Positions 10,230 through 31,499 of a DNA stretch of 45,752 nucleotides are shown here, piece after piece. The notes below the pieces were generated by a model. That model saw nothing but the letters and a program-made list of their open reading frames with translations. It ran no database searches and had not been told where the DNA came from. Each line of letters begins with the position of its first letter. Position 1 is the first letter of the stretch. The stretch is taken from IMG/VR virus record IMGVR_UViG_3300012917_000008, positions 1 through 45,752 of that record; one strand, written 5' to 3'. Source of the stretch: a virus. The translations under genes were made by a program, and so were the position numbers.

Positions 10230-10244
10230 TGTTTGGAGTGTACA

Positions 10245-17068: not shown

Positions 17069-18284
17069 TGTTTATCCTATTCCTTATATGAAATGTAGCT
17101 GTTATTGGGACCGATTTATTGTTGTACGTTAACTCCCTTTGGGTAATATCTTTTACAATTCTCAATACTTGTTCTTCTTCATCTTTTCTACCTCCATTCG
17201 TAGAAGATTGATATCTAAATGCCCATTTTAATGAGTCATGCTGATTTTGTATTAAGTAAGAATTAGGAAACTCTTTCTGTAAAAGAATACACGACTCATT
17301 TATATACGAAGCTACAGTACCTTGTATTCTAAAATTAAATCCCTCTTTAGCTGTAGATTGATTAGTGAAGTAAAATAATCTTCTATTACCATATAAAGTC
17401 CTAGCAATTTTATCTCTGCGTATCTTCTCCATTTCTACTGCTTTTCTACTTTGTATCTCTACATTATCTTCCACGAAGCGTATAGCAATATTGATGTAAT
17501 CAGGAGCCACCATGTCACCCTTGCTGTCTTCAATAGTAAAGGATTCGATATTTGGAATCGTATATACAAAAGTTGGATTATAAATAAGCCTATGAAATAC
17601 ACGATAAGGTAGTTTAGGCTTATACTTATTATACTTATCAATGGAGACATAGAAATATTGTCCTCCATAGGTCATATTTTTAGATATTGTTCTTCTAGGG
17701 TCATCTTTACCATTCCATTTTACTTCTTCTCGCCATTTACAATGTCTACAAGTCTCCTGTAGAATTCCTCTGTCAATGCTACATGTGCATAGGCCATGAG
17801 GGTTATTTGTATCTGGTGGACTTGGTAAATTAAATAAAGTACAAGTGACAGGAGTATGAATATCAACACCATTTCGTAAATCATTTAATCTTTCTTCCCA
17901 ATCTAATATTAAACAGTATATCCTATGCTCCACAGCATCTAAATCATGTTCTATCCAGAATGTATCTTTATCAGGTTGTATACAGTCCCTGGAAGACCAG
18001 CAATATTTAGTCTTCTCATGTATTCCTCTAGGACATGAAGGGTTGATACACTTCTTAGGGAAGCCATTTAAATTAGGGTCGATAAAAGACCATCTTCCAC
18101 TACTTTGTGTGGGAAGAATAGTAGGAGATATTCTATCTTTATTTCTTAAAGAATGTATAACTGTATCTCTTAGAGTGTGTATATTAGAATATGCAAGACG
18201 CAACTCAGCTATTTCTTTTTGCTTACTTGATAGTTTATCCTTTTTTAACTCTTTTAATAATTCATCTCTAGATATGCTGGGCAT
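17058..18284 (-). CDS. Family-A DNA polymerase, C-terminal half (palm and fingers)
   Basis: The 408-residue protein carries the family-A catalytic core without thumb N-part or exonuclease. The order is a thumb/palm linker with GRWSFIDPNLNGFP (residues ~63-76), motif A HDLDAVEHR (D114), motif B RTISKNMTYGGQY (R198, K202, Y206, lined up as in T7 polymerase) and motif C QHDS (H349, D350). Motif C has Ser where HDE is usual. Two Cys-rich inserts (CINPSC with CWSSRDC at ~79-101, and CTC with CRHC at ~166-182) flank motif A and may bind zinc. Its start overlaps the stop of a 47-residue membrane ORF and has AAGGAT upstream, so it is a genuine separate gene. It must pair with the 18428 product to give a whole enzyme. 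Confidence 0.85.
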   Translation of the reverse strand: MPSISRDELLKELKKDKLSSKQKEIAELRLAYSNIHTLRDTVIHSLRNKDRISPTILPTQSSGRWSFIDPNLNGFPKKCINPSCPRGIHEKTKYCWSSRDCIQPDKDTFWIEHDLDAVEHRIYCLILDWEERLNDLRNGVDIHTPVTCTLFNLPSPPDTNNPHGLCTCSIDRGILQETCRHCKWREEVKWNGKDDPRRTISKNMTYGGQYFYVSIDKYNKYKPKLPYRVFHRLIYNPTFVYTIPNIESFTIEDSKGDMVAPDYINIAIRFVEDNVEIQSRKAVEMEKIRRDKIARTLYGNRRLFYFTNQSTAKEGFNFRIQGTVASYINESCILLQKEFPNSYLIQNQHDSLKWAFRYQSSTNGGRKDEEEQVLRIVKDITQRELTYNNKSVPITATFHIRNRINNES

Positions 18285-18427
18285 TATTTATCCTTATCTT
18301 CATTAAATAACCAAGTTAGTAATCTATACGGTAGTCTAGATACAATATACACTGCAACTAAAAGGAAAATAAGCATAGTACATATGTAAAATAGTGAAGT
18401 TACTATAAAAGAGATAATATCTACCAT
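18284..18427 (-). CDS. 47-residue membrane protein between the polymerase halves
   Basis: Translated on the minus strand, this ORF reads MVDIISFIVTSLFYICTMLI followed by FLLVAVYIVSRLPYR and a short charged end (NEDKDK). It is one long transmembrane segment of ~30 residues with a cytoplasm-facing tail. The start lies directly after the stop of the N-terminal polymerase gene, with AAGGAAG five bases upstream. The stop overlaps the polymerase C-terminal start (TAATG). Tight coupling on both sides argues for a real gene. Its role, perhaps tethering or lysis control, is unknown. Confidence 0.65.
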   Translation of the reverse strand: MVDIISFIVTSLFYICTMLIFLLVAVYIVSRLPYRLLTWLFNEDKDK

Positions 18428-20002
18428 TTACTCTTCCTTATCTTCGTTAATATTAGAAGATTCATTTATATTATTTAAATACTCCTGAGCTAAAGCTATT
18501 GCTACTTCAGCTTGTGTTAAGCTTTTCTTCTTCCTTTTAACCTTTACAGGTCTATCTCTTATGTATATATCATTATAAATAGCATCTCCTACATGCTGAT
18601 GTGAAGCGATATTAAAATCAGGATTACCTGATACTTCTTTACTTCTCTCTACAATTTCACTCATCTCCTCATCTAGTAAAGAGGCTAAGTATTCAACTCT
18701 CTCTTTATATACTTCCACTCCTATCTTTTGAAATTTATCAATTATGTATAAAAGAGGCTGTCTACGTAATGTATATTCCCGCCATGACAACTTATCCTTT
18801 GTGAATTGAACTAATTGATACTTCCATACATAATTTAACGTAGTATCAACATCTAATCCTGCATAGAAACATTTTGTATATAAATCTCTTGTAGTGCGTA
18901 TATGTTTATGTCTATTGTATTTACCTACACATGAGGTCATATAATCTAAATTAGTAGGTTCTCCAGGAAATAAAGTAGCCCACCCTAGCATGCAATCTTC
19001 TAATTTAATATTACTAACATTAAATACATCTGTAAAATGTGGCAAATCTACAAGTCCATTCTGTGTTACTACAGTAGTACCAGGCTGGATATCCAGAATA
19101 CTAGGAAAAGAAGTATTAAGAACATCAACGACGTAAATATTACCTTGAACATCTGCTAAGCTCCACATTTCTAATTTATTACCTTCAGATACATCATATT
19201 CAGTATCGAAGCCTATGTATGTAGGTATACTTTCTGGTTGTTTATTTATATGCATATGTGGTGGTAAAATAGGCCATTCTCCTTTTACAAATTTACCAAA
19301 TTTAATAAAGTCTAATACTGTTGCTCTGTAGAGAGTAGGGTCTTGATACAACGATGCAATATGTATTACAGAGTATATATTCTTTACATAAGGATCATCT
19401 CTGATAGGATTGTAATAATTATCAAATCCTAGTATTTTATTACTATTTGTAATAGAATTGTATTCAGAACCTAATACCCACCCTCTCCAATCTTTAATAC
19501 CATTTCTAGATCCTTCTAATTTGGTTAATGCGTAGAGAGATATACCACCCATAGCGAGGATATATTTATTACTATCAGGGATATACAAATAAGCTCTTGT
19601 ACAGTGTTCAATGGCTTCCTTGAGCATAGTAGGAGTAATGCCGTTAACAGATTTGTTACTGCCAATACTGGGAAGATCATTCTTTCCATATGGTCTACAC
19701 TTTATAATATTAGCTCTACTTGTATTATTATACGATATACTAGTATAAGACCAGAATTCATCTTGTAGCCACTTCCCACTCTTACCAATTAAAGGTTGCG
19801 GTCGTACACTTTCTGTAATCTCTACTTGTTTTCCATTGATATACTTTGTAGATACTAACTTTGTTCCATATTCTTCATGTCTACCTGGTGCTTGTGCAAC
19901 AATACATACCTCTGAATCTTTAACGTAGTAATCAGGAGTTATATATGGAGATAACTCATAAAATGGACATCCTTTACATTTATCAGGCTTAGGAATTGGC
20001 AT
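18428..20002 (-). CDS. UDG family-4-like domain + 3'-5' exonuclease + polymerase-A thumb N-part
   Basis: The 524-residue protein contains three parts. Residues 1-240 resemble a family-4-type uracil-DNA glycosylase: cysteines C9 and C12 (CKGC), C102 (IIKCRPYG) and C134 (EHC) could hold the 4Fe-4S cluster, with VAQAPGRHEEYG (35-46) and PLIGKSGKWLQ (70-80) as active-site-like loops. Residues ~258-395 are a DnaQ-like exonuclease with D266/E268 (FDTEYD), N315/D319 (QNGLVDL) and Y380/D384 (YAGLD). Residues ~415-500 match the start of the polymerase-I thumb (FQKIGVEVYKERVEYLASLL, PDFNIASHQHVGD). The protein then stops in the thumb, and the palm is encoded separately at 17058. UDG fused to polymerase is known in SPO1-like phages. 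I consider glycosylase activity likely but not certain. Confidence 0.85.
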   Translation of the reverse strand: MPIPKPDKCKGCPFYELSPYITPDYYVKDSEVCIVAQAPGRHEEYGTKLVSTKYINGKQVEITESVRPQPLIGKSGKWLQDEFWSYTSISYNNTSRANIIKCRPYGKNDLPSIGSNKSVNGITPTMLKEAIEHCTRAYLYIPDSNKYILAMGGISLYALTKLEGSRNGIKDWRGWVLGSEYNSITNSNKILGFDNYYNPIRDDPYVKNIYSVIHIASLYQDPTLYRATVLDFIKFGKFVKGEWPILPPHMHINKQPESIPTYIGFDTEYDVSEGNKLEMWSLADVQGNIYVVDVLNTSFPSILDIQPGTTVVTQNGLVDLPHFTDVFNVSNIKLEDCMLGWATLFPGEPTNLDYMTSCVGKYNRHKHIRTTRDLYTKCFYAGLDVDTTLNYVWKYQLVQFTKDKLSWREYTLRRQPLLYIIDKFQKIGVEVYKERVEYLASLLDEEMSEIVERSKEVSGNPDFNIASHQHVGDAIYNDIYIRDRPVKVKRKKKSLTQAEVAIALAQEYLNNINESSNINEDKEE

Positions 20003-20195
20003 CTAGTATACCTTTATAATCTTCTATATTAAACTCATTTAAATTTCTTTCAACTATTGATGAATATCTATATACATTGTAAAGCTTTGACAATTGATTA
20101 ACAGCATTCTCAGCGTTGTTAACATTAGAGAATACTGCTATTATATCTTCTTTGTAATATACTACATATACCTTTACATGTTTAACTATTGGCAC
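19989..20195 (-). CDS. Small protein, unknown (head of polymerase operon)
   Basis: The 68-residue product (MPIVKHVKVYVVYYKEDIIA, then FSNVNNAENAVNQLSKLYN) is a beta-alpha-beta type small domain of the sort found in many tiny phage proteins. It overlaps the glycosylase-polymerase gene by 14 bases. A long stem-loop element (20213-20288) lies immediately upstream and may act on this gene or on the whole polymerase block. Confidence 0.6.
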   Translation of the reverse strand: MPIVKHVKVYVVYYKEDIIAVFSNVNNAENAVNQLSKLYNVYRYSSIVERNLNEFNIEDYKGILDANS

Positions 20196-20212
20196 TATAT
20201 ACCCTTATTTAC

Positions 20213-20288
20213 AAATATAAAAGTCAGGCTGTTGACTATGGGGTACATTTAACCATGTGAAGCTAACATGCACCTGACTTCTATATTT
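20213..20288 (-). ncRNA. Long-stem RNA element E (upstream of polymerase block)
   Basis: The 16-base arms at 20213-20228 and 20273-20288 are complementary except at position 8. There the plus strand has A opposite C, but the minus-strand RNA would have a G-U pair. The inside can form two hairpins: CATGT (20254-20258) with ACATG (20266-20270), and ATGG with CCAT. Together these give a three-way-junction shape of about 76 nt. It lies in the spacer between the 20312 and 19989 genes, read in the operon direction. It shares the motif CATGGTTAAA with element A near 22.4 kb. There is no U-run, so simple termination is less likely. Confidence 0.5.
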
Positions 20289-20311
20289 ATAGGTTAATTA
20301 CGTTCTACTTA

Positions 20312-20905
20312 TTACATACTTCTAAGATTACCTAAGAAGTTACCTCCTGTTTTACTTGCTGTAATATACATATAATACGTGCCATTCTGTACCATTGTTA
20401 ACAACTCCTTAGTACCTTTAACCTCTCTTTCCATTTTATTAAAGTACAACTTAGTAAACTTTCCCCAATTATCATTGAGGAAGTCTAATGATCTTGGTTC
20501 TAAAGGATTTCCTTCACTATCCCTACGGACACGTACATCAGGAGAGATATCAAAGAAGAACCTTCCTTTACGACCCGTAGAGCTTTGTGCAGGTGTTACA
20601 ATTCCTGACACATTATACACCAATCTTCCATTAGGTGATAAATCTCCTCTTTCTCTATCCTCTTCAATATATCTCTTACGAATAGTTAATGCTAATTTAC
20701 CTTCTACTGAATCCCATTTATACTGTCCTGCAGGTAAAGATAAATTCTCTTCGATAGCTTTCGTAGATTGAGGATTGAGGTTAAAGTCTTCCTCTAATAC
20801 ATTTACCTCTTCTTCATTTCTACTACTCTCTACTTCATTTGTAAATGGATTATTCATTTCAGCGGATTCGTCTTCACCTTTGAATAAATCTTTAATATCA
20901 GACAT
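20312..20905 (-). CDS. Candidate ssDNA-binding protein
   Basis: The 197-residue protein begins with ~50 acidic, Ser/Glu-rich residues (FKGEDESAEMNNPFTNEVES) and then a ~140-residue beta-rich domain. Segments include QYKWDSVEGKLALTIRKRY, GRLVYNVSGIVTP and KGRFFFDISPD. It ends with a short basic tail (GGNFLGNLRSM). Position between polymerase and ERF genes, size and acidic extension fit a phage ssDNA-binding OB-fold protein, but I see no diagnostic motif. Alternative: another recombination mediator. Confidence 0.5.
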   Translation of the reverse strand: MSDIKDLFKGEDESAEMNNPFTNEVESSRNEEEVNVLEEDFNLNPQSTKAIEENLSLPAGQYKWDSVEGKLALTIRKRYIEEDRERGDLSPNGRLVYNVSGIVTPAQSSTGRKGRFFFDISPDVRVRRDSEGNPLEPRSLDFLNDNWGKFTKLYFNKMEREVKGTKELLTMVQNGTYYMYITASKTGGNFLGNLRSM

Positions 20906-21077
20906 TGTCTTCTTTCTCTCTATTTGAGATTCTTAATGTAAGTAGAAAATTCTCATCACATGATACACATTCAAATGTATATATAGGTTCATATTTACTT
21001 ACATCTGTACATGTATAACTTATCAACTCTTTACATATAGGACATACTAGAGAGACTTGAATATCTTTTACTTTCAT
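20898..21077 (-). CDS. Zinc-ribbon small protein
   Basis: The 59-residue ORF (MKVKDIQVSLVCPICKELIS ... TFECVSCDENF) carries CPIC and CVSC pairs with a third Cys between, a typical single zinc ribbon. It overlaps the start of the candidate SSB by eight bases and starts two bases after the 21079 stop. It is probably a small DNA- or protein-binding accessory of the recombination block. Confidence 0.6.
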   Translation of the reverse strand: MKVKDIQVSLVCPICKELISYTCTDVSKYEPIYTFECVSCDENFLLTLRISNREKEDNV

Positions 21078-21078
21078 A

Positions 21079-21558
21079 TTATTCCTTACTTTCAGTATCC
21101 TCTACATTCATTGGTAATGTTATTGTAGATTTTATACAAACAGTAGCAAATGATGGTCTGTATTCTTCTTTCATATTACGTATATAAGTATCTAATGCTC
21201 CTTTATCATACTTTAAAAACATCTGATGCTCTATACACCATGCTAGAGCTTCTACATCTTCATATTCTACTACTTTAATATCTCTCTCTTTTATACTTCT
21301 ATATATCTCCTTTCCTTGTTCAGGGTTACTTTCATATAGAGATAAAGCATAATTTCTTAATTTATCTTCTGTATTATGTACATCTTCTTGTGCTTGATCT
21401 AAATTGGATAACAACTCCTTATGTAAATCATTAAAAATATTCTTCTCATTTATATATATCTCATTTAACTCCTTTCTTAATTTACGTAAATGGGTCAATA
21501 CATGTAAGTAATCATCTAACTTTTCCTTATCTTCTAAAGTTAATCTATCATTTTCCAT
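21079..21558 (-). CDS. Coiled-coil protein next to ERF
   Basis: The 159-residue protein has a long N-terminal coiled coil (residues ~5-75: KLDDYLHVLTHLRKLRKELN, ELLSNLDQAQEDVHNTEDKL). A C-terminal globular part follows, including VVEYEDVEALAWCIEHQMF and ATVCIKSTITLP. It is directly coupled to the ERF gene (start and stop overlap). Coiled-coil partners of annealing proteins, including Gp157- or Gam-like nuclease inhibitors, sit in this place in many phages; the family here is not certain. Confidence 0.6.
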   Translation of the reverse strand: MENDRLTLEDKEKLDDYLHVLTHLRKLRKELNEIYINEKNIFNDLHKELLSNLDQAQEDVHNTEDKLRNYALSLYESNPEQGKEIYRSIKERDIKVVEYEDVEALAWCIEHQMFLKYDKGALDTYIRNMKEEYRPSFATVCIKSTITLPMNVEDTESKE

Positions 21559-22286
21559 TATTTATCCTTATTGTCTATGATACTCTGTAGGTAATTTATA
21601 ACCTTTCTTAAATGATAAGGACCCAGATCTTCAAGCTTATCTACTAAAGCTTCTTGTAGTATATCCTTCTCTGTATGTGTTGTTTGCAAAAGTAGCTTAC
21701 GTATTATCTTTATATACTCTTGAATATCTTCTGTACTTTCCTTTTGTACTACTGCTCTGCTATCCGTATCAATATTACCAGTCATTATACCAAATGCATC
21801 ACAGAATGCATATCTCTTCGCATATGTCAACGCTGCAGCATAGTGCTGAGTAGCTGACATAATATTTGTCCTCTCTCCTAATGGATACTTAACAGGAGGA
21901 TGTATAATTTCATGCCCCTCTATATGTCTAATTATACATGATACTATTCCATATTCAGTATCGGGAACAGTAATCATAGCATAGCTGAATCCATGTTTGT
22001 AGATTAAAGGCCTTACCTGGTAAATTATAGACTCTATTGGAGCGTATGGATAGAGGAATACTCCCTGTTTATTGTACACCTTTTTAGTTTTCTTAATAAT
22101 AGGACATTCATTCTGGAATTCGGCCATACTTATAAAATACGCTTCCTTAGCTTGTTGAGCTTTCCACTTCTCACGCATTATTAACAACCTTTCTAAAGTC
22201 TCCACTGATACATTTTTATCAATAGCCTGTGTAATTAATAAATCAACTTGATTGTCTCGTACTTGTTTAACTGGTAGTATTTCCAT
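21558..22286 (-). CDS. erf: ERF-family ssDNA annealing protein
   Basis: The 242-residue product shows the ERF pattern. A helical lead is followed by YPYAPIESIIYQVRPLIYKH (residues ~78-97), GFSYAMITVPD, the YGIVSCIIRHIEGHEI strand pair, and the hallmark SATQHYAAALTYAKRYAFCD (~143-162) with a following acidic GNIDTDSR. These proteins anneal complementary single strands for phage recombination and can form concatemers for packaging. Four stem-loop elements precede the gene in its transcript. Confidence 0.9.
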   Translation of the reverse strand: MEILPVKQVRDNQVDLLITQAIDKNVSVETLERLLIMREKWKAQQAKEAYFISMAEFQNECPIIKKTKKVYNKQGVFLYPYAPIESIIYQVRPLIYKHGFSYAMITVPDTEYGIVSCIIRHIEGHEIIHPPVKYPLGERTNIMSATQHYAAALTYAKRYAFCDAFGIMTGNIDTDSRAVVQKESTEDIQEYIKIIRKLLLQTTHTEKDILQEALVDKLEDLGPYHLRKVINYLQSIIDNKDK

Positions 22287-22342
22287 TTATGTATACCATT
22301 TTATATATGTACATAATATACACACTTGTAAATAGATACAAT

Positions 22343-22418
22343 AAAAGGTAGATACCATGAACGAATCATTAAACTCTATGCCCTACTTCATAGAGTTTAA
22401 CCATGATATCTACCTTTT
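22343..22418 (-). ncRNA. Long-stem RNA element A
   Basis: The 12-base arms at 22343-22354 and 22407-22418 are perfectly complementary. Inside are a 10-bp hairpin (22371-22380 with 22389-22398) and a short one (ATGA 22357-22360 with TCAT 22366-22369), giving a three-way-junction shape. In the minus strand the outer stem is followed by a TTTTATT run, so it could also act as a weak terminator or attenuator before the ERF gene. It shares CATGGTTAAA with element E. Confidence 0.5.
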
Positions 22419-22427
22419 GTTACTAAC

Positions 22428-22506
22428 AATGTAGAGCTATTCTAAGTGCCCGTATATATCATACTTGGAGGTGAATATTCTATATACCAAAGAATAGCCC
22501 TACATT
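22428..22506 (-). ncRNA. Long-stem RNA element B
   Basis: The 16-base arms at 22428-22443 and 22491-22506 match at 15 positions. The single mismatch (A22435 opposite C22499) becomes a G-U pair in the minus-strand RNA, as in element E and at the same stem position (8). The internal part holds weak short pairings, including AAGT with ACTT. Just after the 5' arm, in the minus direction, both B and C carry TGGTATATA. Confidence 0.5.
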
Positions 22507-22513
22507 ATAAACC

Positions 22514-22597
22514 CTGTAGAGTTACTCTAAGCTTCAGTTATATATTATACTGCGAGAAGGTTAGAGACAGTATATATACCAGAGAGTAACTCTACAG
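22514..22597 (-). ncRNA. Long-stem RNA element C
   Basis: The 15-base arms at 22514-22528 and 22583-22597 are perfectly complementary. An internal 7-bp stem (TATACTG with CAGTATA, minus-strand reading) closes a 15-nt loop. Like B it has GTAGAG/CTAC-type ends and TGGTATATA after the first arm, so B and C look like diverged tandem copies. It lies in the spacer between 22629 and 22286. Confidence 0.5.
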
Positions 22598-22627
22598 TTC
22601 TTCTACTCTCAATGAAGAATAGAAGAA
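22598..22627 (-). terminator. Hairpin D at the 3' end of the 22629 gene
   Basis: TTCTTCTA (22598-22605) pairs with TAGAAGAA (22620-22627) around a 14-nt loop, directly downstream of the stop of the minus-strand 22629 gene. It may be a simple 3' hairpin that, with elements A-C, sets the level of read-through into the ERF part of the operon. It is AT-rich and without a clear U-run. Confidence 0.35.
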
Positions 22628-22628
22628 A

Positions 22629-23054
22629 TTACGAAGCCAACATCTCATCGACTAAAGCTTCTACAAGGCCCACTTTATCATTAGCAAATGAATCATACGA
22701 TACAGAATGTCTCATACATAGTAAACGTACTTTATCCTCTGGTAAAGTATTAATAAAGTTACGAAGTGAAGTTCTAGCGATATCTTCTTTACTCCTTGCT
22801 TGTCTTACAGAAGGACGACCTGCACATGCATCTCGTAATTCAGCTTCAATACTATGTGCATGTGCATAGGCACTATCAAGACGTAGGACAATACGAGCTT
22901 TCTTCTTCCATCCGTAAATTTGCTTACTAAAAGCAGTATCTAACATATCATGAAGTTCTGTAGGGATTAGAACTTTGTAATCGTCTAGTACAAAGTTCTC
23001 TAGGGAGTTATCTTTCTCTTCTACCTCTTCAACTACTGCGGTATCCTCTGACAT
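22629..23054 (-). CDS. First gene of minus operon; SAP-like end, unknown
   Basis: The 141-residue protein has an acidic, disordered start (VVEEVEEKDNSLENF), a central helical part (WKKKARIVLRLDSAYAHAHS), then a C-terminal ~40-residue helix-extended-helix (LPEDKVRLLCMRHSVSYDSF, DKVGLVEALVDEML) that resembles a SAP or HeH-type DNA-binding fold. It is promoter-proximal, so probably made early and abundantly. It may be a DNA-binding or transcription-related protein. Confidence 0.65.
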   Translation of the reverse strand: MSEDTAVVEEVEEKDNSLENFVLDDYKVLIPTELHDMLDTAFSKQIYGWKKKARIVLRLDSAYAHAHSIEAELRDACAGRPSVRQARSKEDIARTSLRNFINTLPEDKVRLLCMRHSVSYDSFANDKVGLVEALVDEMLAS

Positions 23055-23110
23055 TTTACCCCTTTCCTTTTAGGACTGTATTTTGTATACTTTGTTTATC
23101 AAGTTACTTA

Positions 23111-23139
23111 AAGGTAGCACAGTAGAAAATGAATGTCAA
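23111..23139 (-). promoter_or_regulatory. Putative promoter of the minus-strand replication operon
   Basis: On the minus strand, TTGACA (23139-23134) is followed after 17 bases by TACCTT (23116-23111), about 55 bases upstream of the first gene. The -35 is a perfect consensus; the -10 matches only three of six positions, so either a weak sigma-70 site or one used by a phage factor. The same TTGACAT start appears at 24095 and 34091. Confidence 0.5.
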
Positions 23140-23167
23140 GGGTCCTTTACATAAAAATGGAGAAAGT

Positions 23168-23482
23168 ATGTTTCAGGAAGAAAAACATAGGAAATTTTAT
23201 AAATTCATTAAATGTCCAGGATTAAAGCCAAGTGATTACTTTTTATTTAAGTCTATTAGAGATTATTTCTTTCCATACCATGCTGAGTTATCCAATACAA
23301 GACAAGTACTTGTATTATCTCTTAGATTCTTATATTCACAATGGCATAATCCTTCTTGTAGAGAGAGTATTTTAGCTCTAGCAGACATAATAAACCATGA
23401 AGATCTCGATAGACAATTAGAACATATTACCTATAAATCATTACAAGATATTGTTAAAGAAACTGAAATAAAGAGACCATAA
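23168..23482 (+). CDS. Small helical protein, unknown (first rightward early gene)
   Basis: I choose the ATG at 23168 because GGAG lies five bases upstream and because an upstream in-frame ATG (23129) falls in the divergent promoter. The 104-residue product is mostly helical (EEKHRKFYKFIKCPG, LFKSIRDYFFPYHAEL, ILALADIINHEDLDRQ). It has no recognised domain. It is the first gene after the divergent control region and may be an early host-takeover or regulatory protein. Confidence 0.6.
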   Translation: MFQEEKHRKFYKFIKCPGLKPSDYFLFKSIRDYFFPYHAELSNTRQVLVLSLRFLYSQWHNPSCRESILALADIINHEDLDRQLEHITYKSLQDIVKETEIKRP

Positions 23483-23555
23483 TTTAAAAGTAAAATGAAA
23501 ATGAAAGAATTTAAAAGACTCAATTTTATATATATATACAATAGAGATATATAAA

Positions 23556-23942
23556 ATGGATAAATACTATACAGAAGAAGATGTATCACAGGAATGTATA
23601 TTAATACAATTAGAGAAAGGAGATTTAATATTAGACCAACATCTATTAAGATTAGAAGCTTTAAATAGATTAGACCCTAGAAGACAAGATAAGACTAAAG
23701 GAAGGAGAGAAGATAGATATGTTTCGTATGATTATAGAGAAGATAGAAGGTTAACTAAAGAGGACATGTTATTATCCTTTATTCTTAGATTATATAAAAT
23801 AAAGGATAATAAATTATATATTAATATTCTAGAGTATTTATTCCTAGAAGGATTAAGTTATATAGAAATATCCAATAAAGTACATAGACAAAGACAAACA
23901 GTATCAAGGATATTAGATAAGATTGTACATGTTCTTTCTTAG
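23556..23942 (+). CDS. Sigma-factor-like HTH protein
   Basis: The 128-residue product has an N-terminal DVSQECILIQLEKGD motif, reminiscent of the sigma-2 'DLVQEVFLRL' stretch. It has a clear C-terminal sigma-4-like helix-turn-helix (YLFLEGLSYIEISNKVHRQR, then TVSRILDKIV). The middle is strongly basic (RRQDKTKGRREDRY). It is shorter than a full ECF sigma factor, so it may be a reduced sigma or a late-transcription activator of the ArpU/RinA kind. It would be a candidate for reading the non-standard -10 sites seen in this genome. Confidence 0.6.
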   Translation: MDKYYTEEDVSQECILIQLEKGDLILDQHLLRLEALNRLDPRRQDKTKGRREDRYVSYDYREDRRLTKEDMLLSFILRLYKIKDNKLYINILEYLFLEGLSYIEISNKVHRQRQTVSRILDKIVHVLS

Positions 23943-24094
23943 TATTAAGAATTAAGATTCATAAATCTAAATTTATATATTGCAAGAAGTGTACCAAATA
24001 TACTTTCTCTTGAATAGAAATTTAAATAGCTATTCTAGGGCCCTTTAGAAGAGTAAAGATAGAATAAATATTATAAAATTTTCATATATACCCC
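23943..24094. other. AT-rich leader without gene
   Basis: I see no ORF. It holds a small hairpin (TTCTA 24033-24037 with TAGAA 24046-24050, loop containing GGGCCC) that may end the transcript of the sigma-like gene, then a very AT-rich stretch just before the promoter at 24095. Confidence 0.45.
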
Positions 24095-24123
24095 TTGACA
24101 TCTCTCTCTTCATTCTTCATAAT
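24095..24123 (+). promoter_or_regulatory. Putative strong promoter before structured leader
   Basis: TTGACA (24095-24100) and CATAAT (24118-24123) are separated by exactly 17 bases, eleven of twelve positions matching the sigma-70 consensus. Transcription would start near 24130, right at the first hairpin of the structured region. It is the best vegetative-type promoter I found in the window. Confidence 0.7.
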
Positions 24124-24129
24124 ATACAC

Positions 24130-24405
24130 ATCTACTCAGTAAACACTGAGATGGTGGTTAGAGTTACATATATCCCCTAGATACTGTTTTATAGGTAGAA
24201 ATTAGGTCTACGTCTCGATTGGTGTATCACTAGGATAGTCTCCTATATTTACCAACGACGTAGTAATCCCTAACAGCTAATCCTATATGACTGGTATAAA
24301 CGGTTTCTAGGCTGATATCCTTTTCTATGGATGCGTCTATAGGAAAGGCCCTGTAATGTGACTCTGTATATATTGTATATACAGAAAGGTTCACAGTCCT
24401 TCAAC
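24130..24405 (+). ncRNA. Highly structured leader RNA or ncRNA, ~275 nt
   Basis: Many nested pairings can be drawn. They include CTCAGT (24135) with ACTGAG (24145), and GTTAG plus TTAC (24157-24167) with GTAA plus CTAAC (24263-24274). CTACGTC (24208) pairs with GACGTAG (24257), enclosing TTGGT/ACCAA and TAGGA/TCCTA in one arm. A 10-bp hairpin joins 24319-24328 to 24339-24348, and another 10-bp hairpin joins 24363-24372 to 24376-24385 inside TGTGA/TCACA. CCTAGA (24176) could also pair with TCTAGG (24306) across the first domain, a pseudoknot. The one non-Watson-Crick pair in the fourth stem is U-G on the plus strand, agreeing with the promoter. I do not recognise an Rfam family. It may be an independent ncRNA or a regulatory leader for the gene at 24425. 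Confidence 0.6.
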
Positions 24406-24424
24406 ACAGATGACAGGAGATACT

Positions 24425-24598
24425 ATGGCTATAGTTATAAAGACGAAATACAATGTAGTTGAGATATCTATCGAAGATAATGATGTAGTAATAAAAAGTG
24501 GAGGAATGCCTATAGCAAGTATTGCAATTGTTGATTTATTAACATTTATAGATGAATCTTGGGCGATAGAGAAAGATGGAGAAGAAGATGTTAAATAG
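24425..24598 (+). CDS. Small protein, unknown, behind structured leader
   Basis: The start at 24425 has AGGAGA five bases upstream; an in-frame ATG at 24410 lies before that site. The 57-residue product begins MAIVIKTKYNVVEISIEDND and ends with an acidic helix. Its stop overlaps the next gene. It is the first protein behind the ncRNA-like leader, so the leader may control it. Confidence 0.6.
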   Translation: MAIVIKTKYNVVEISIEDNDVVIKSGGMPIASIAIVDLLTFIDESWAIEKDGEEDVK

Positions 24599-25145
24599 TA
24601 AAGAGGGATTTGATAATACTCTATCGATGCATGTTGATATGTTTCCTAGTGTACCTCAAGATCAAGAAGGGTATAAAGAGTTATCATTCTTCACTGATTC
24701 TCAGAAAGCTGAGATACGTACTCGTATACATGATTATGAAATGAATCCTAAAAGTAGAAATAGAGGAGCAGCGTTAATTACAAAGATTAAAAATGTAGCC
24801 ATTGCTAAAAAGGAATTGTTAAAATTCATTGAAGATATCAAAGATTTACTTGAACCCCATGAAAGAAAGGAAAGAGTCTCTGTAAAAGAGGCAGAAGTGT
24901 TAAATGAACAACGTAATATCAATAAAGTTACTGAAAGTTATAGAAAGGCATTTCCTAGTGAGAAGATGTTACGAGCATTTGCTGATACTATCCTTGGAGA
25001 GGAGATACATGGAGATTATACCTTTGAAGAGTTACCATTGGTAATTGCAACAAAGCAGATAACGGGAAAGTTGATACCTATTGATATGGGAAATTATAGC
25101 ACAAACTTGTCTATTAGTGTGACTAAAGGAGGTATGCATGCTTAA
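24588..25145 (+). CDS. Helical protein of early cluster, unknown
   Basis: The start is 24588 (GGAG upstream) or 24576. The 185-residue protein is charged and mostly helical (TRIHDYEMNPKSRNRGAALI, LLKFIEDIKDLLEPHERKER) with a small C-terminal beta part. The RIHDYEMNPKSRNRGA stretch is basic. It overlaps both neighbours. No family is recognised; host-takeover or DNA-related work is a guess from position. Confidence 0.6.
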   Translation: MLNSKEGFDNTLSMHVDMFPSVPQDQEGYKELSFFTDSQKAEIRTRIHDYEMNPKSRNRGAALITKIKNVAIAKKELLKFIEDIKDLLEPHERKERVSVKEAEVLNEQRNINKVTESYRKAFPSEKMLRAFADTILGEEIHGDYTFEELPLVIATKQITGKLIPIDMGNYSTNLSISVTKGGMHA

Positions 25146-25332
25146 GAAGTTACAGAAAGAATTAGACAGAGTTAATACTGTCATGACAAGAAAACATGAA
25201 AATAGAAAGTATCAACGATACCAAGTAGTAATACTTTCTACTTACATAACCATTGAATGTAATAATGAAATAGAACATACATTCGAAACATTAGAAGGTG
25301 CCTATAGATGGCTCACATTTATAAAGGAGTAA
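25138..25332 (+). CDS. Small protein, unknown
   Basis: The 64-residue product (MLKKLQKELDRVNTVMTRKH, then YQVVILSTYITIECNNEIEH) has a coiled-coil start and a beta end. It overlaps the preceding gene by eight bases. The function is unknown. Confidence 0.55.
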   Translation: MLKKLQKELDRVNTVMTRKHENRKYQRYQVVILSTYITIECNNEIEHTFETLEGAYRWLTFIKE

Positions 25333-25334
25333 CT

Positions 25335-25655
25335 ATGCATCAACTTGATATGTTTTGTGAACAAGAAGTTCATCAAGAACATCTCCTCAATGAGGTTGTT
25401 ATGTCATTGTATAATGCAAGTAAAGTATGTCCTTCGGGAATGTTAATCGTAGGATACGACCCTACGGTAACATGTGAGAGATGTACAATTGTAGAAGATT
25501 CATTTACTGTAAGATTTGATATGATGATTGTGTGGAATGGGAAGCATACACACTATATTAATCTCTGTGATTGTTGTTTAGATACTGTTTGTGAATGTGA
25601 GAGAGAGTTTCAAGAAGTAAATAAAGTAGGCTTTATGCCTCATACTGTGAACTAG
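25335..25655 (+). CDS. Cys-rich zinc-type protein
   Basis: I start at the ATG behind AAGGAG; an earlier in-frame start at 25308 lies inside the previous gene. The 106-residue product has CERC and a LCDCC ... CECE cluster, so a treble-clef or zinc-ribbon fold is plausible. A domain with alternating strands joins the Cys groups. A strong hairpin directly follows the gene. Confidence 0.6.
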   Translation: MHQLDMFCEQEVHQEHLLNEVVMSLYNASKVCPSGMLIVGYDPTVTCERCTIVEDSFTVRFDMMIVWNGKHTHYINLCDCCLDTVCECEREFQEVNKVGFMPHTVN

Positions 25656-25664
25656 AGTGTTGTG

Positions 25665-25710
25665 TGTATGTATAGTGTGTATATATAAAGATATACACAC
25701 TATACATACA
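25665..25710 (+). terminator. 20-bp perfect hairpin
   Basis: The arms 25665-25684 and 25691-25710 are fully complementary around a six-base loop (ATAAAG). The stem is AT/GT-rich and has no following U-run, so intrinsic termination is possible but unproven; RNase processing or mRNA stabilisation are alternatives. It sits between the 25335 and 25725 genes. Confidence 0.5.
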
Positions 25711-25724
25711 TAGTAGAGATAAAA

Positions 25725-25940
25725 ATGTTTATAAGTTTATTCATGCCAAGTAGTTTATCATTTGATAGTATTGAAAGCGTAGATAATTGGATATCATCTA
25801 TACTATCAACGATAGATATTACAGATGCATCTCAGATTATTGTCTATAGTATAGATGATCTTGAGAGATGTTATGTCTATAAGAGTAGCTATTATCAAGA
25901 AGGTATATACGACCATATATATATCGATTGGAGAGATTGA
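25725..25940 (+). CDS. Small acidic protein, unknown
   Basis: The 71-residue product (LSFDSIESVDNWISSILSTI, then IIVYSIDDLERCYVYKSSYY) is acidic with one helix and a beta hairpin. It starts 14 bases after the long hairpin with AGAGAT as weak ribosome binding site. The function is unknown. Confidence 0.55.
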   Translation: MFISLFMPSSLSFDSIESVDNWISSILSTIDITDASQIIVYSIDDLERCYVYKSSYYQEGIYDHIYIDWRD

Positions 25941-25944
25941 TTCA

Positions 25945-26103
25945 ATGGAAGACCTCACGATTCATATGTTGAATTTTTACACTGATAATGTCCAGGCATG
26001 TTATACGCAATGTGGATTATGGCGACGGCTTAAAGATGTCCTTCTTGGCTCTCTCGATGAATGTGAGTGTGTAAACTGCCTCAAGACGTACATAAAGGAC
26101 TAA
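25945..26103 (+). CDS. Small Cys-containing protein, unknown
   Basis: I use the ATG at 25945 with GGAGAG nine bases upstream; a longer frame opening at 25855 overlaps the previous gene and reads as a hydrophobic shadow. The 52-residue product has CYTQC and CECVNC groups and may bind zinc. Codon use here and in the next gene is less AT-rich than in neighbours, hinting at a different origin. Confidence 0.5.
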   Translation: MEDLTIHMLNFYTDNVQACYTQCGLWRRLKDVLLGSLDECECVNCLKTYIKD

Positions 26104-26107
26104 CCCT

Positions 26108-26452
26108 ATGTCAGACCTTCTACAACGGCTCACAGTGCATCATCTCCAGGAAGCTTACTATTCCCTACTTGAGAGTATAAAGTCGAACCTAGAGGCTGTG
26201 AAGAGGCTTGATCGAGCTTTTAACATTGTGTCCAAAGATTCGGCCTATCACATCACCTACATATCAGGAAATCCAGTCACCTTTCACGTCCAAGGGCCCA
26301 ATGACACGTATACAGTGATCAATAGTCAACGACTATGCACTTGTCCTGATAATCAAATACTCTGTAAACATCGACTCGCAATTTCATTAATATTAAACAC
26401 TATCAATCTCCAAAAGAGAGATGGTATTTCTATTGATGTGAAAGGTGAATAA
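26108..26452 (+). CDS. SWIM-type zinc-finger protein
   Basis: The 114-residue product has an N-terminal helical part and a SWIM motif at residues ~76-95, CTCPDNQILCKHRLAISLIL (C-x-C ... C-x-H). SWIM fingers bind DNA or proteins and occur beside SF2/SF1 helicases, and the next gene is an SF1 helicase. The 5' two thirds is GC-richer than the surroundings. It may be a helicase partner. Confidence 0.75.
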   Translation: MSDLLQRLTVHHLQEAYYSLLESIKSNLEAVKRLDRAFNIVSKDSAYHITYISGNPVTFHVQGPNDTYTVINSQRLCTCPDNQILCKHRLAISLILNTINLQKRDGISIDVKGE

Positions 26453-26453
26453 T

Positions 26454-27938
26454 ATGAATATACAATGGTCAGATGAACAATTGGATATATTCTCTGTGTA
26501 TGAGGATATACAAGAGAATATACAAGTTAATGCTTCTCCAGGTTCAGGGAAAACAACTATTCAATGTGAGATATGGAATAGATCATTACTAGGTAATACA
26601 TTGTATCTTGCTTTTAATAAAGCAATAGTAGAGGAGATGTGTTTAAAGACTATACCTAGACATGGAAGTAAGATATCAACATTTAATTCATTAGGCCATA
26701 GTATATGCATGAATACATGGCCCAATATTAAGTTTAATGTTCATAAGATAGCTAAACATGTACGTAGTATTGAACATTTAATCCCTGAAAGGAATCAATG
26801 TAGATATGAATTGATTAAATTGGTAAAGTATTTAAAGAATATCCCCCATGCATTACATATTGATGAAGGAGATGTAGAAGATGTTACAGAGTTTTATGAT
26901 ATAGATGTATATCCTGATATGGTAGACCATGCTCTTCATGTATTGAAGGAGAATATACATGATACGAAGGAGATTGATTATAGCGATCAGTTGTTGTTTC
27001 CAGTGGTGTACAATTTGGCTGCACCAATGTATGGAACAGTACTGATCGATGAAGCACAAGATGTGAATGCAGTACAGATTGAATTAATTAAATTACTACA
27101 AGCTAGAAATCCTTCTCTACGGCTCTGTAGTGTGGGAGACAATCACCAAGCTATCTATGCCTTCAGAGGTGCTTTGCATGACTCTATGGACCAGCTAGGC
27201 AGGGAATTTGATGTCTATGAAATGCCCTTGACCATTACAAGGAGATGTGACAGGAAAATAGTAGACTATGCCCAGGTTTTATACCCTCATGATATTACTG
27301 CTAGTCCTACTGCACAGGAAGGATGCATTACCACTATTGATCATACTCAATGGCATATTAAACCCTTCATGAGAAATTATATCGATCTCATTCCTGACCT
27401 GCATTTCGACCAGAATATTAATAACACGTTAATAGTCTGTCGAACTACTGCTCCATTGGTATCCTTTGCGTATCAATTACTGAGATGTAATATTCCTTGT
27501 TATATACGAGGGAGAGATATAGGAGAGAATTTAATAAAGTATATACAGAAGTCTCAATGTATGTATGTAAATGATTTTCTTCATTATATGGACGAGGATA
27601 TCAATGGAGAGATAGAAAGGTGTAAAGTGTTACATAAAATAGATAGAATACAAATATTACAAGATAAATATGATATGTTAGAGATATTCTGTAATAGTAT
27701 TAATTCCATATACATACAAGATGTATGTATGTATATTCAAGGCTTATTCAAAGAAGGGAAAGGTATACAGTTATCGACCGTGCATAAGAGTAAAGGATTA
27801 GAAGCTGATAGAGTGATGATACTTTGTAAAGATTTAATGCCACATCCTTTAGCAAGTAAGGAGTGGGAATTAATACAAGAGAGAAATATTGAATATGTAG
27901 CGATTACAAGGGCCAGGCATGAATTAGTATTGATGTGA
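26454..27938 (+). CDS. SF1 (UvrD/PcrA-type) DNA helicase
   Basis: I use the ATG at 26454 (AAAGGTG upstream); an in-frame GTG at 26445 is also possible. The 494-residue product shows all main SF1A motifs: motif I NASPGSGKTT (~26-35), motif II VLIDEAQDV, motif III GDNHQAIYAFRGA, motif V STVHKSKGLEADRVMIL and motif VI YVAITRARHE at the C-terminus. It is shorter than UvrD (~720), lacking most 1B/2B insertions, like other phage UvrD-like helicases (compare Dda of T4). It would unwind DNA in replication or recombination. Confidence 0.9.
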   Translation: MNIQWSDEQLDIFSVYEDIQENIQVNASPGSGKTTIQCEIWNRSLLGNTLYLAFNKAIVEEMCLKTIPRHGSKISTFNSLGHSICMNTWPNIKFNVHKIAKHVRSIEHLIPERNQCRYELIKLVKYLKNIPHALHIDEGDVEDVTEFYDIDVYPDMVDHALHVLKENIHDTKEIDYSDQLLFPVVYNLAAPMYGTVLIDEAQDVNAVQIELIKLLQARNPSLRLCSVGDNHQAIYAFRGALHDSMDQLGREFDVYEMPLTITRRCDRKIVDYAQVLYPHDITASPTAQEGCITTIDHTQWHIKPFMRNYIDLIPDLHFDQNINNTLIVCRTTAPLVSFAYQLLRCNIPCYIRGRDIGENLIKYIQKSQCMYVNDFLHYMDEDINGEIERCKVLHKIDRIQILQDKYDMLEIFCNSINSIYIQDVCMYIQGLFKEGKGIQLSTVHKSKGLEADRVMILCKDLMPHPLASKEWELIQERNIEYVAITRARHELVLM

Positions 27939-27979
27939 TGTATTATTGTAATACATCTTTATATATGAGAGGGACGACA

Positions 27980-28267
27980 ATGACTCAAGAAGAATTGGAC
28001 CAATGGATTCATGCGTTAGAGAGTGGTGTGTATCGTCAAGGGCAAGAGGTTCTCTACTCTCCAGAGGAGGATACGTATTGTTGCCTTGGTGTATTGGCCG
28101 CGTTACGTGGTGATCTTAGTGATGACATGTATGAATATCCTCAGGATATCCCTGATCATATTACGATGGCATTGATTGAGCTCAACGATAATGAGGTTCC
28201 TGATCAGTATGCACGGGTTATCAGGTACTTGACACGTGAACGTACTCAAGCTGAATTGGTCGAATGA
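27980..28267 (+). CDS. Small protein, unknown
   Basis: I start at the ATG at 27980 with GAGAGGG upstream, not the earlier frame opening at 27935. The 95-residue product (MTQEELDQWIHALESGVYRQ, then a CCLGVLAALRG stretch) is acidic. 'EEDTYCCLGVLA' is the style of a small phage protein family seen often in short hypothetical ORFs. It closes the rightward early cluster. Confidence 0.65.
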   Translation: MTQEELDQWIHALESGVYRQGQEVLYSPEEDTYCCLGVLAALRGDLSDDMYEYPQDIPDHITMALIELNDNEVPDQYARVIRYLTRERTQAELVE

Positions 28268-28359
28268 CTCTATATATCTATATATCTAAGAGGTATCTAT
28301 GTGTCTAAGAGGGAGAGAATGTATATGTGAGTATGGATGAGTGTATGTATTGATAAGTA

Positions 28360-28395
28360 TACATTCATATATATGAATGTATGTATATACATACA
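28360..28395. repeat. Two adjacent AT-rich palindromes
   Basis: A 22-base perfect palindrome at 28360-28381 is followed by an 18-base one at 28378-28395 (core GTATGTATATACATAC); the two share four bases. On either strand they form hairpins. Such sites may act as terminators or protein-binding sites. Confidence 0.55.
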
Positions 28396-28405
28396 GAATA
28401 AGTAC

Positions 28406-28454
28406 TATACCTAATAGAGTCTACACCATTTAGACATAGACTCTATTAGGTATA
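28406..28454. terminator. 18-bp hairpin, possible bidirectional terminator
   Basis: The arms 28406-28423 and 28437-28454 are perfectly complementary (ending TAGAGTCTA and TAGACTCTA) with a 13-base loop. It lies between convergent gene clusters, as expected for a two-way terminator. No U-run follows on either side. Confidence 0.5.
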
Positions 28455-28533
28455 TGTATTAGAGATTAGTATAAGTAGTCCAGGGAACCCATAGAGACCA
28501 TATATCCCCCCTTACCCCCCTAGTAAACAATAC

Positions 28534-28581
28534 ATGTACATACACATATATATAAACTATGTACATACACATATATATAAA
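28534..28581. repeat. Tandem 23-bp direct repeat (two copies)
   Basis: Bases 28534-28556 and 28559-28581 are identical and lie two bases apart, a 25-base period. Each begins ATGTACATACACA and ends in an AT run. Only two copies are seen. Iterons of this kind can bind replication initiators; the RepL-like gene lies about 3 kb away. Confidence 0.6.
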
Positions 28582-28605
28582 GTAAGTTAATTTTTTCTTC
28601 TAGAA

Positions 28606-28764
28606 TTAATCCTTACCTGTAAGCATAGGAGCATCTTTATACTCTTTTAAATTCTTATTATACCTTGATAACCAACACCAATTTCCTATACATTTCTTCT
28701 TCTTAATCTTAAAGACAATCCAACCTCTCTTTCTAAGATACTTAACCATAAAGTAAGTAATCAC
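28606..28764 (-). CDS. Small basic protein, unknown
   Basis: The ORF uses a GTG at 28764 (AAGGA upstream, overlapping the stop of the next gene as GTGA); an ATG at 28749 is the alternative. The 52-residue product is basic (MVKYLRKRGWIVFKIKKKKC, then GNWCWLSRYNKN). It is the last gene of the leftward small-gene cluster. The function is unknown. Confidence 0.5.
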   Translation of the reverse strand: MITYFMVKYLRKRGWIVFKIKKKKCIGNWCWLSRYNKNLKEYKDAPMLTGKD

Positions 28765-29027
28765 ATCTTAATCCTTTCTACATTCTTTCTATACCAATAT
28801 ATCTCACTTCTATAATCTTTAACACTTATTCTTTTAGGCTTATCATTTACAGATATATCCTGTAAAGAAGAAGATAATCGTAAAGTCCAATCTATACATG
28901 TATCTAATTCAGTCTTAAATTTAATAGTACAATATCTATCCTCTCTTTCATCAAGGAATCCTATGAGGAATAATACTGTAAAGATACCTAATCCATATCC
29001 TAATAATGCACAACATAATAGTACTAT
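28761..29027 (-). CDS. Membrane-anchored small protein without a normal start codon
   Basis: The open frame encodes about 88 residues: one N-terminal transmembrane segment (VLLCCALLGYGLGIFTVLFL), then a charged soluble part (DEREDRYCTIKFKTELDTC). There is no ATG, GTG or TTG at a sensible place. GGAG sits five bases before an ATA at 29027, overlapping the TAG of a 15-codon mini-ORF (29071-29024). The gene may start at AUA, be coupled to that mini-ORF, or carry a local sequence error. Its stop overlaps the next GTG. Confidence 0.4.
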   Translation of the reverse strand: MVLLCCALLGYGLGIFTVLFLIGFLDEREDRYCTIKFKTELDTCIDWTLRLSSSLQDISVNDKPKRISVKDYRSEIYWYRKNVERIKM

Positions 29028-29064
29028 ATATTCTCCTCTCTCTTTATATCATTTACGTAAGTTA

Positions 29065-29277
29065 CTAGCATTGTATATCTGGCTCTTGAAGAACTACATC
29101 ACTTATAACTTTATCTTGAACAAGATATATAGCAATACTATGTACTCCATCATTAACACTTACATCAAAATAATACTCCTCTACTACTTCTCCATTAAGA
29201 TCCTGCACTGTAACCTCAACATCACTCTCTACTCTTTGTAACTCTTGTAACCTTTGTACTACTTGAGATACTAACAT
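29065..29277 (-). CDS. Small acidic protein, unknown
   Basis: The 70-residue product (MLVSQVVQRLQELQRVESDV, then EVVEEYYFDVSVNDGVHSIA) has a helix then a beta hairpin, a layout common in small phage proteins that act on host or regulatory targets. It overlaps the 29222 frame by 56 bases, so one of the two starts may be off. Confidence 0.55.
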   Translation of the reverse strand: MLVSQVVQRLQELQRVESDVEVTVQDLNGEVVEEYYFDVSVNDGVHSIAIYLVQDKVISDVVLQEPDIQC

Positions 29278-29395
29278 GATTTTCCCTTTCTATTACTATA
29301 CATATATTCTTTGGTAATGATACGAGATGTGTCATCTCTTCTAAAGTCATTACTAAACATCGAGGACCATCACAGAATCTACACGGTTCTTCCAT
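29222..29395 (-). CDS. Small Cys-containing ORF, tentative
   Basis: The 57-residue ORF starts MEEPCRFCDGPRCLVMTLEE, with a CxxC plus C group, and lies just after the 29379 stop (overlap 17 bases). Its 3' end overlaps the 29065 gene by 56 bases, more than usual here. The N-terminal Cys group looks meaningful, but the extent of the gene is uncertain. Confidence 0.4.
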   Translation of the reverse strand: MEEPCRFCDGPRCLVMTLEEMTHLVSLPKNICIVIERENHVSISSSTKVTRVTKSRE

Positions 29396-29591
29396 GGTCA
29401 CTTTGAAACATCCTATACATTAATACACTTACGTTAACAAATAAATCCCAAGGATGTCTAGGATGAGTTTCTAATCCTAATCCTTTACATACTATACGTA
29501 GATGTTCGTTTCTAGAAGATATCTTCTTCTCATACTTTGGATCTATAGTTACTCCCCATTGTTCTATATCACTTTGTAATATATCTTCCAT
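29379..29591 (-). CDS. Small protein, unknown
   Basis: The 70-residue product (MEDILQSDIEQWGVTIDPKY, HPRHPWDLFVNVSVLMYRMF) is helical with a His/Trp-rich middle. Its start overlaps the stop of the upstream 29591 ORF. The function is unknown. Confidence 0.55.
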   Translation of the reverse strand: MEDILQSDIEQWGVTIDPKYEKKISSRNEHLRIVCKGLGLETHPRHPWDLFVNVSVLMYRMFQSDHGRTV

Positions 29592-29746
29592 TACTCTTTA
29601 TCCTTTTTACACTCTGTAACATATTTTACCATCTGTAAGAATTCCTCCTCTGAAATAGTAACACTAAGAGATGTATGGTTATTATTAATTCCCACCACTA
29701 CAACATCACCGTATTTACTTTCATATTTCTTGAAATATACACTCAT
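29591..29746 (-). CDS. Small protein, unknown
   Basis: This 51-residue ORF (MSVYFKKYESKYGDVVVVGI ... EEEFLQMVKYVTECKKDKE) is joined to the upstream gene by TAATG and to the downstream gene by a one-base overlap. It has a beta hairpin then a helix. The function is unknown; overlaps support it. Confidence 0.55.
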   Translation of the reverse strand: MSVYFKKYESKYGDVVVVGINNNHTSLSVTISEEEFLQMVKYVTECKKDKE

Positions 29747-30027
29747 TATTCTATATCCCCTTCTAAACCTCTACGTTTAATATTATCACAGATAAAACAT
29801 TTAACTCTCCCCTTAGAAGACTCCTCTATTACAGGTTTATTAAATAGCATATATATTCTTCTTCCTACTATCTCCTCACATGTAGCTTTAAATAATCTAC
29901 TACTCTTCTTACACTCTTCTGTTAATGCTAAATTATGCTCATTGCATAATTTAATAGTAGTACACTCAAATCCATTTAATTTATTTCTACTCTCATATTC
30001 ATCTCTAACTATTTCAAGTAGAGTCAT
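29746..30027 (-). CDS. Cys-containing small protein, possibly HNH-like or zinc
   Basis: The 93-residue product is helical and charged with five cysteines, including CFIC near the C-terminus (GRVKCFICDNIKRRG). A zinc site formed by CFIC with C/H residues further up (CNEH, CKK) is plausible. It overlaps the 30014 gene by 14 bases. The function is unknown. Confidence 0.5.
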   Translation of the reverse strand: MTLLEIVRDEYESRNKLNGFECTTIKLCNEHNLALTEECKKSSRLFKATCEEIVGRRIYMLFNKPVIEESSKGRVKCFICDNIKRRGLEGDIE

Positions 30028-30223
30028 CTTTCTTCTCCTTTACATGTTCTACTTCTACAGATTTCTGCAAAGAGAAACCATTAACTGTATACTTAGGTAC
30101 ATACATAACAGAATGCTTATCTAGCGAATGCTCATGTAACTGATTTAACGTGTAACATATAAAGTTACATAAAGGTTTATCACATTTAAACACTTCATAT
30201 CTATACTGTGTATCATCTGGCAT
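30014..30223 (-). CDS. C2H2-like zinc-finger small protein
   Basis: The 69-residue protein has CDKPLCNFICYTLNQLHEHS followed by LDKH, close to a C2H2 finger (C...C, then H...H after a helix). Basic and acidic patches follow. C2H2-like fingers occur in phage regulators of the Ros kind, so DNA binding is possible. Confidence 0.55.
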   Translation of the reverse strand: MPDDTQYRYEVFKCDKPLCNFICYTLNQLHEHSLDKHSVMYVPKYTVNGFSLQKSVEVEHVKEKKDDST

Positions 30224-30362
30224 TTAATATCTCTCTTCTTTCCCATGCTTTAAGGATATCTACTAGTACATATCGTAGTAGAAAGATAGTCTTCCCAGTA
30301 GATTCTCCTACAATTGTATTCAACTGTTCTTTAAGTATCCTATCAGCTTCAAGATCTGTCAT
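30213..30362 (-). CDS. Small helical protein, unknown
   Basis: The 49-residue ORF (MTDLEADRILKEQLNTIVGE ... FLLRYVLVDILKAWERRE) is amphipathic helical and overlaps the next gene by 11 bases. It starts one base after the 30364 stop. The function is unknown. Confidence 0.5.
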   Translation of the reverse strand: MTDLEADRILKEQLNTIVGESTGKTIFLLRYVLVDILKAWERREILNAR

Positions 30363-30363
30363 A

Positions 30364-30552
30364 TTAATTCCCTTTCAGTATATCAATGACCTTTTCTAAG
30401 TACTCTTCATATATATCCTCTGCACCTGAAGTTAATAATAGACGTACTCTCTTTTTACCATCAGCATCACTAACTATTCTTACTCCAGTGAGTATCTCTT
30501 TCTTGAATATGTATAAACCATGTGGTCCTTTTACTTGGAAGATGTTATCCAT
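30364..30552 (-). CDS. Small protein, unknown
   Basis: The 62-residue product (MDNIFQVKGPHGLYIFKKEI, then SGAEDIYEEYLEKVIDILKG) reads as a small beta domain with a C-terminal helix. It starts directly after the upstream stop. The function is unknown. Confidence 0.55.
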   Translation of the reverse strand: MDNIFQVKGPHGLYIFKKEILTGVRIVSDADGKKRVRLLLTSGAEDIYEEYLEKVIDILKGN

Positions 30553-31375: not shown

Positions 31376-31499
31376 TATCCTTCTTCCACTTCGCTTTAGC
31401 TCTTTTACTTTTCTCTTCAGGATGAAACCTTCTATATCTTTGTAAAACAGTATCTAAACAACTTTCTACAAAGATATCTAGTACATTCTTCTCATTCAT
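31329..31499 (-). CDS. Small basic protein, unknown
   Basis: The 56-residue ORF starts at ATGA overlapping the stop of the RepL-like gene. It is strongly basic (MNEKNVLDIFVESCLDTVLQ, then KSKRAKAKWKKDNELRRTGK). It could be a DNA- or RNA-binding partner of the replication protein. It overlaps the next gene by 47 bases if that gene uses its long start. Confidence 0.5.
   Translation of the reverse strand: MNEKNVLDIFVESCLDTVLQRYRRFHPEEKSKRAKAKWKKDNELRRTGKKGGKYVY

Follow-up and report, generated by a model that had tools for sequence, protein, structure and literature searches.

A conserved structured RNA from an unlisted family lies between a promoter and a rightward operon in a rare phage group

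The 45,752-base IMG/VR virus record IMGVR_UViG_3300012917_000008, analyzed over its whole length and called the window here, carries a structured RNA at 24,130 to 24,424. This RNA is real, conserved and rightward, and it comes from a family that is not listed. It is an RNA outside Rfam, supported by covariation, whose promoter and core are conserved and whose arm is exchangeable, and it occurs in a phage group that is rare and almost without relatives in annotated databases. That it acts in cis, as a structured leader at the 5' end of a rightward (early or replication) operon, is the reading that we favor, at about even chances. The features referred to below are these.

24,095 to 24,123, plus strand: sigma-70-type promoter, TTGACA-17-CATAAT (from the sequence; the 17-nt spacer is also found in relatives).
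24,130 to 24,424, plus strand: whole structured RNA or putative leader, from the inferred start to just before the ATG at 24,425 (fold z score; covariance model).
24,131 to 24,162, plus strand: helix P0 (24,131-24,134/24,159-24,162) around hairpin P1 (24,135-24,140/24,145-24,150) (double changes).
24,163 to 24,291, plus strand: possible pseudoknot, GUUA 24,163-24,166 with UGAC 24,288-24,291 (formed in all three sequences).
24,170 to 24,318, plus strand: core helix P2 (24,170-24,174/24,314-24,318, 24,176-24,180/24,307-24,311 and 24,183-24,187/24,300-24,304) (alignment).
24,190 to 24,287, plus strand: variable arm P3, with a base helix (24,190-24,195/24,282-24,287) followed by a three-stem arm (double changes at the base).
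24,319 to 24,348, plus strand: P5, a 13-bp hairpin with a UGCG loop (double changes, invariant U-G pairs).
24,349 to 24,419, plus strand: P6 terminal domain, CCTGT 24,350-24,354 with ACAGG 24,413-24,417 (fold z scores, fold of the full leader).
24,425 to 24,598, plus strand: first open reading frame (ORF) after the RNA, 57 aa (without a family match or a homologue in four relatives).

Relatives were found through the 543-aa virion protein and through the DNA polymerase, and both queries led to the same small group: the near relatives G001 (IMGVR 3300012206_000009) and G003 (3300012349_000008), the more distant G004 (3300019360_000006) and G005 (3300045740_000206), and the fragment G002. G006 (3300012351_000321) was added by DNA pattern, and its RNA is identical to that of G003. 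The RNA homologues are therefore on three IMG/VR contigs (G001, G003 and G006) and represent two distinct sequences, those of the two nearest relatives; together with the window, the comparisons rest on three distinct RNA sequences. The family A DNA polymerase of the window is split over two minus-strand ORFs (17,058-18,284 and 18,428-20,002), which is not a sequencing error, since the halves are also separate in relatives; in the upstream half there is a weak match of uracil-DNA-glycosylase type.

The search for homologues covered viral contigs (DNA patterns and proteins), genome contigs (proteins) and phages and plasmids (DNA). The protein searches of genome contigs returned no further homologues, and no homologous RNA beyond the three distinct sequences was found in any of these collections. 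Strong matches of our covariance model, R1, were to the homologues only, and by the same model the DNA-pattern matches outside the known homologous contigs were judged to be chance. The syntenic gaps of G004 and G005 gave no significant match to the model, though they are long and gene-free at the position of the RNA, and a weak match in G005 (L032:5297-5480) was rejected, being away from the syntenic gap and having many broken pairs. The G005 gap itself (L032:9765-10024) has a different fold (z = -2.2), in which the next Shine-Dalgarno sequence is fully hidden (unpaired probability 0.00), and it may hold an unrelated or highly diverged leader.

The locus is syntenic, with a conserved 117-aa gene upstream and a homologue of the gene at 24,576-25,145 downstream, and the order of promoter, RNA and ORF is kept in the three distinct phages. 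Between the window and G001, positions 24,288-24,440 are 82.9% identical, against 67 to 77% for the corresponding stretches nearby that lie outside the RNA. Elsewhere, the stretch at 9,761-10,232 has no called ORF, yet it shows 79 to 87% identity to G001 and G003; it is probably an unrecognized or shifted coding frame ahead of the ORF at 10,233.

The promoter is present exactly as the earlier note had read it, as TTGACA (24,095-24,100), a 17-nt spacer and CATAAT (24,118-24,123), pointing into a gene-free stretch. Its ranking as the best promoter in the genome holds for the interval 15,000-32,500, where it comes first (11/12); over the whole window it is only joint best, tied with TAGACA-18-TATAAT at 44,041. 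The counterparts are TTGACA-17-TATATT in G003 and TTGCAA-17-TATGCT in G001. In all three phages, 7 nt separate the -10 box from the first paired base of P0, as read from the sequence, and this constant gap suggests that the RNA would fold from its first bases. The predicted transcription start is at about 24,130, some 7 nt past the -10 box. Directly upstream of the promoter, the ORF at 23,556-23,942 encodes a small protein with a weak match to sigma-70 region 4 or phage regulators; the corresponding gaps of G001 and G003 showed no ORF like it.

Covariation was counted on a MAFFT alignment of the three distinct sequences built without structure. With three sequences the evidence is strong, not exhaustive, and the structure itself was drawn from these same sequences. 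All 40 core pairs (P0, P1, P2, the P3 base and P5) are formed in all three sequences (100%). Changes on both sides affect 11 of the 40, against 3.6 +/- 1.6 in shuffled controls, none of 500 reaching the observed count, and pairing falls to 30 to 55% when partners are slid by 1 to 3 bases. Column-shuffled alignments yield about 1.6 such helices of 4 bp and 0.2 of 5 bp, compared with 21 and 13 observed. The earlier note would have taken a lack of covariation among homologues as evidence against the RNA; the paired changes lie above every shuffle and above the slid controls. That note would also have counted homologues keeping neither helices nor promoter against the RNA; the homologues keep both the helices and the promoter spacing.

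The individual helices differ in how they have changed. P5 is the clearest, with five double changes, two invariant U-G pairs and no broken pair; no second UGCG hairpin of at least 11 pairs was found among the sequences examined. P0 has one double change and P1 two, with none broken, in a hand alignment, and one each on the MAFFT columns. The 15 pairs of P2 are formed throughout, 13 of them invariant and two with a single-sided change. For the P6 domain, z is -3.1, -2.3 and -2.7 in the three phages, and the G003 domain is only about half identical to those of the window and G001.

The least conserved part of the RNA is the arm at 24,190-24,287. The three stacked stems noticed earlier (CTACGTC/GACGTAG, TTGGT/ACCAA and TAGGA/TCCTA) do appear in the minimum-energy fold of the window, but their sequence is not conserved: the three-stem arm is specific to the window phage, and the relatives have a dissimilar arm at the same place, with an identity to either of only 36% (window arm cut short at 24,247 for the comparison). 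Each of the four basal pairs of P3 has changed on both sides and is still paired. The pairing CCTAGA/TCTAGG, once proposed as a pseudoknot, is actually part of the nested core helix P2, which encloses the arm. Another pseudoknot is possible between GUUA and UGAC (GUYR/YGAC), which is formed in all three sequences with one double and one single change; it is close to chance level, since YGAC has a second possible partner and helices of similar size with one double change arise by chance.

The plus strand at 24,130-24,424 has a folding energy of -90.5 kcal/mol (z = -4.07), which none of 200 shuffles equals, and the homologous stretches of the two relatives likewise outdo their shuffles (z = -2.99 and -2.04). 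The end, placed earlier at 24,405, should move to about 24,424, since the Shine-Dalgarno strand at 24,413-24,419 takes part in the last helix, and the element becomes about 20 nt longer. A skeptic could take the structure for chance, or for a side effect of some DNA feature or of an antisense ORF, since a good fold is obtained for the minus strand too (z = -3.57) and G001 has a minus-strand stop-free run of 108 codons. This run is not conserved, the longest ones being 56 codons in the window and 60 in G003, and the antisense ORF was rejected on that ground. The double changes (none of 500 shuffles as high) and the invariant U-G pairs of the plus strand contradict this reading further, and we give it very little probability. 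Since the two U-G pairs in the P5 hairpin, invariant in all three sequences, would be A-C mismatches on the other strand, they identify the plus strand as the transcribed one; the earlier argument from a U-G pair is stronger than it was stated. The claim that the stretch is gene-free likewise survived, no plus-strand ORF running through the region: stop-free runs reach at most 27 codons in the window, against 37 in G001 and 38 in G003.

The RNA is conserved, lies on the plus strand and is contiguous with the promoter and the operon. For the leader that we favor, host RNA polymerase would start at about 24,130, and the first 290 nt would fold into P0/P1, the P2 core with its variable arm, the P5 hairpin and the P6 terminal domain, with transcription continuing into the operon at 24,425-28,267, which encodes a SWIM protein and a UvrD-like helicase. 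Recognition would fall to the conserved core, P0-P1-P2-P5; the terminal helix, by pairing with the Shine-Dalgarno sequence, would gate translation of the first ORF, and the leader would perhaps also affect how stable the entire transcript is, or its elongation. Transcription, action in cis and the gating step are all inferred.

The Shine-Dalgarno sequence AGGAG (24,415-24,419) shares AGG with the ACAGG strand of P6, and the ATG follows 5 to 7 nt further; a good Shine-Dalgarno sequence and ATG lie within a few bases of the RNA in all three phages. In all three minimum-energy folds, this strand is paired in the terminal helix, and AGGAG is unpaired with a mean probability of 0.05 in G001, 0.22 in G003 and 0.35 in the window. 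The last value is nothing unusual in this genome, where 13 of 42 genes have a lower one, and we therefore do not take the hiding of the Shine-Dalgarno sequence as proof of translational control. Such pairing would be a plausible output of the leader.

What follows the RNA is not constant: each of the three phages has a small gene of its own as the next ORF, although visual comparison shows a resemblance between the second ORF of G003 and the first ORF of G001. A gene-specific switch is therefore unlikely. The constant promoter, the constant core, the lack of a terminator and the exchangeable first gene point instead to a leader acting on the whole transcript or operon. The RNA core is conserved better than the neighboring genes and is far more constant than the next ORF, so it may act on the whole transcript and not on one gene. 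That same constancy would also suit a stand-alone, trans-acting phage RNA, processed near the P6 helix and binding a host or phage protein or RNA, and the position at the extreme 5' end of the transcript and the long hairpins, which RNase could cut, fit such an RNA as well. However, no terminator-like site was found on the plus strand inside or just 3' of the RNA in a scan of 15,000-32,500 (the scan gave two plus-strand sites, each lying upstream of the RNA, and the overall number of sites is what chance would give), and a Shine-Dalgarno sequence and ATG follow closely in three phages; we give a trans-acting RNA a considerable chance, though a smaller one than the leader. Between the two options offered earlier, a stand-alone RNA or a leader of the gene at 24,425, the data lean to a leader without settling the matter, and a switch for that single gene is the part that fares badly.

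The surroundings invite a third interpretation, in which the gap holds a replication origin and the RNA is its primer or activating transcript. The gap is 76 to 82% A+T in the three RNA-bearing phages, gene direction diverges nearby, the surrounding genes serve replication and recombination, and in two relatives the gap also contains tandem repeats, with a period of 14 nt in G001 and of 16 nt in G004. These arrays, upstream of the RNA position (L019:769-974 in G001 and L031:9315-9661 in G004), could be an origin or an operator. Yet the window has no repeats, G003 has no clear array, G004 has repeats but no RNA, and another noncoding element, separate and better conserved, is present at 28,478-28,524; an origin transcript is accordingly quite unlikely. 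That C-rich element (GTCCAGGGAACCC...CCCCCCTTACCCCCCTAGT) stands behind the rightward operon and is 90 to 95% identical in G006, G001 and the distant G004, and a terminator-like hairpin of 20 bp is found nearby at 28,407-28,453.

As for known RNAs, a search of the whole window against the 4,227 families of Rfam 15 gave no match at the gathering threshold, and a permissive search returned only chance matches far below gathering scores; ARAGORN found no tRNA or tmRNA gene. The impression that no known family could be recognized is thus borne out by covariance models. GOLLD and ROOL resemble the window RNA as structured RNAs in phage DNA whose function is unknown; they are stand-alone and larger than its approximately 290 nt, and neither has an Rfam match in the window.

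The put RNA of the lambdoid phage HK022 resembles the window RNA in being structured, nascent and placed at, or close to, the beginning of a phage operon. Early promoters drive its transcription, and it works without a dedicated protein (PMC9378689). Antitermination of this kind, in which the nascent RNA binds RNA polymerase so that pauses and terminators are ignored, would agree with an RNA that begins where transcription from the operon promoter starts and that does not depend on which gene comes first; putL similarly lies just downstream of its early promoter (PMC9378689). The window RNA is promoter-proximal in all three phages, behind a promoter that may be early. On the other side, put has two stem-loops in about 70 nt (PMC9378689), unlike the roughly 290 nt with five or more helices here (P0/P1, P2 core, variable arm, P5 and P6), shares no sequence or family match with the window RNA, and would have no visible terminator to overcome here, both plus-strand sites in 15,000-32,500 being upstream. 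We consider put-like antitermination improbable, and equally so a new RNA class that, put-like in function yet structurally unrelated and four times larger, would need no protein partner to reprogram operon transcription from its nascent 5' end.

For the leader that we favor, the comparison is with riboswitch-like or autoregulatory leaders that sequester the Shine-Dalgarno sequence, of which the manA and wcaG motifs of cyanophages are phage cases (PMC2864571). The window RNA matches no Rfam family, and its downstream gene is not of a constant class across homologues, which is unusual for a ligand-sensing leader; it shares with them its 5' position, a conserved core with a variable arm, and a terminal helix over the ribosome-binding site.
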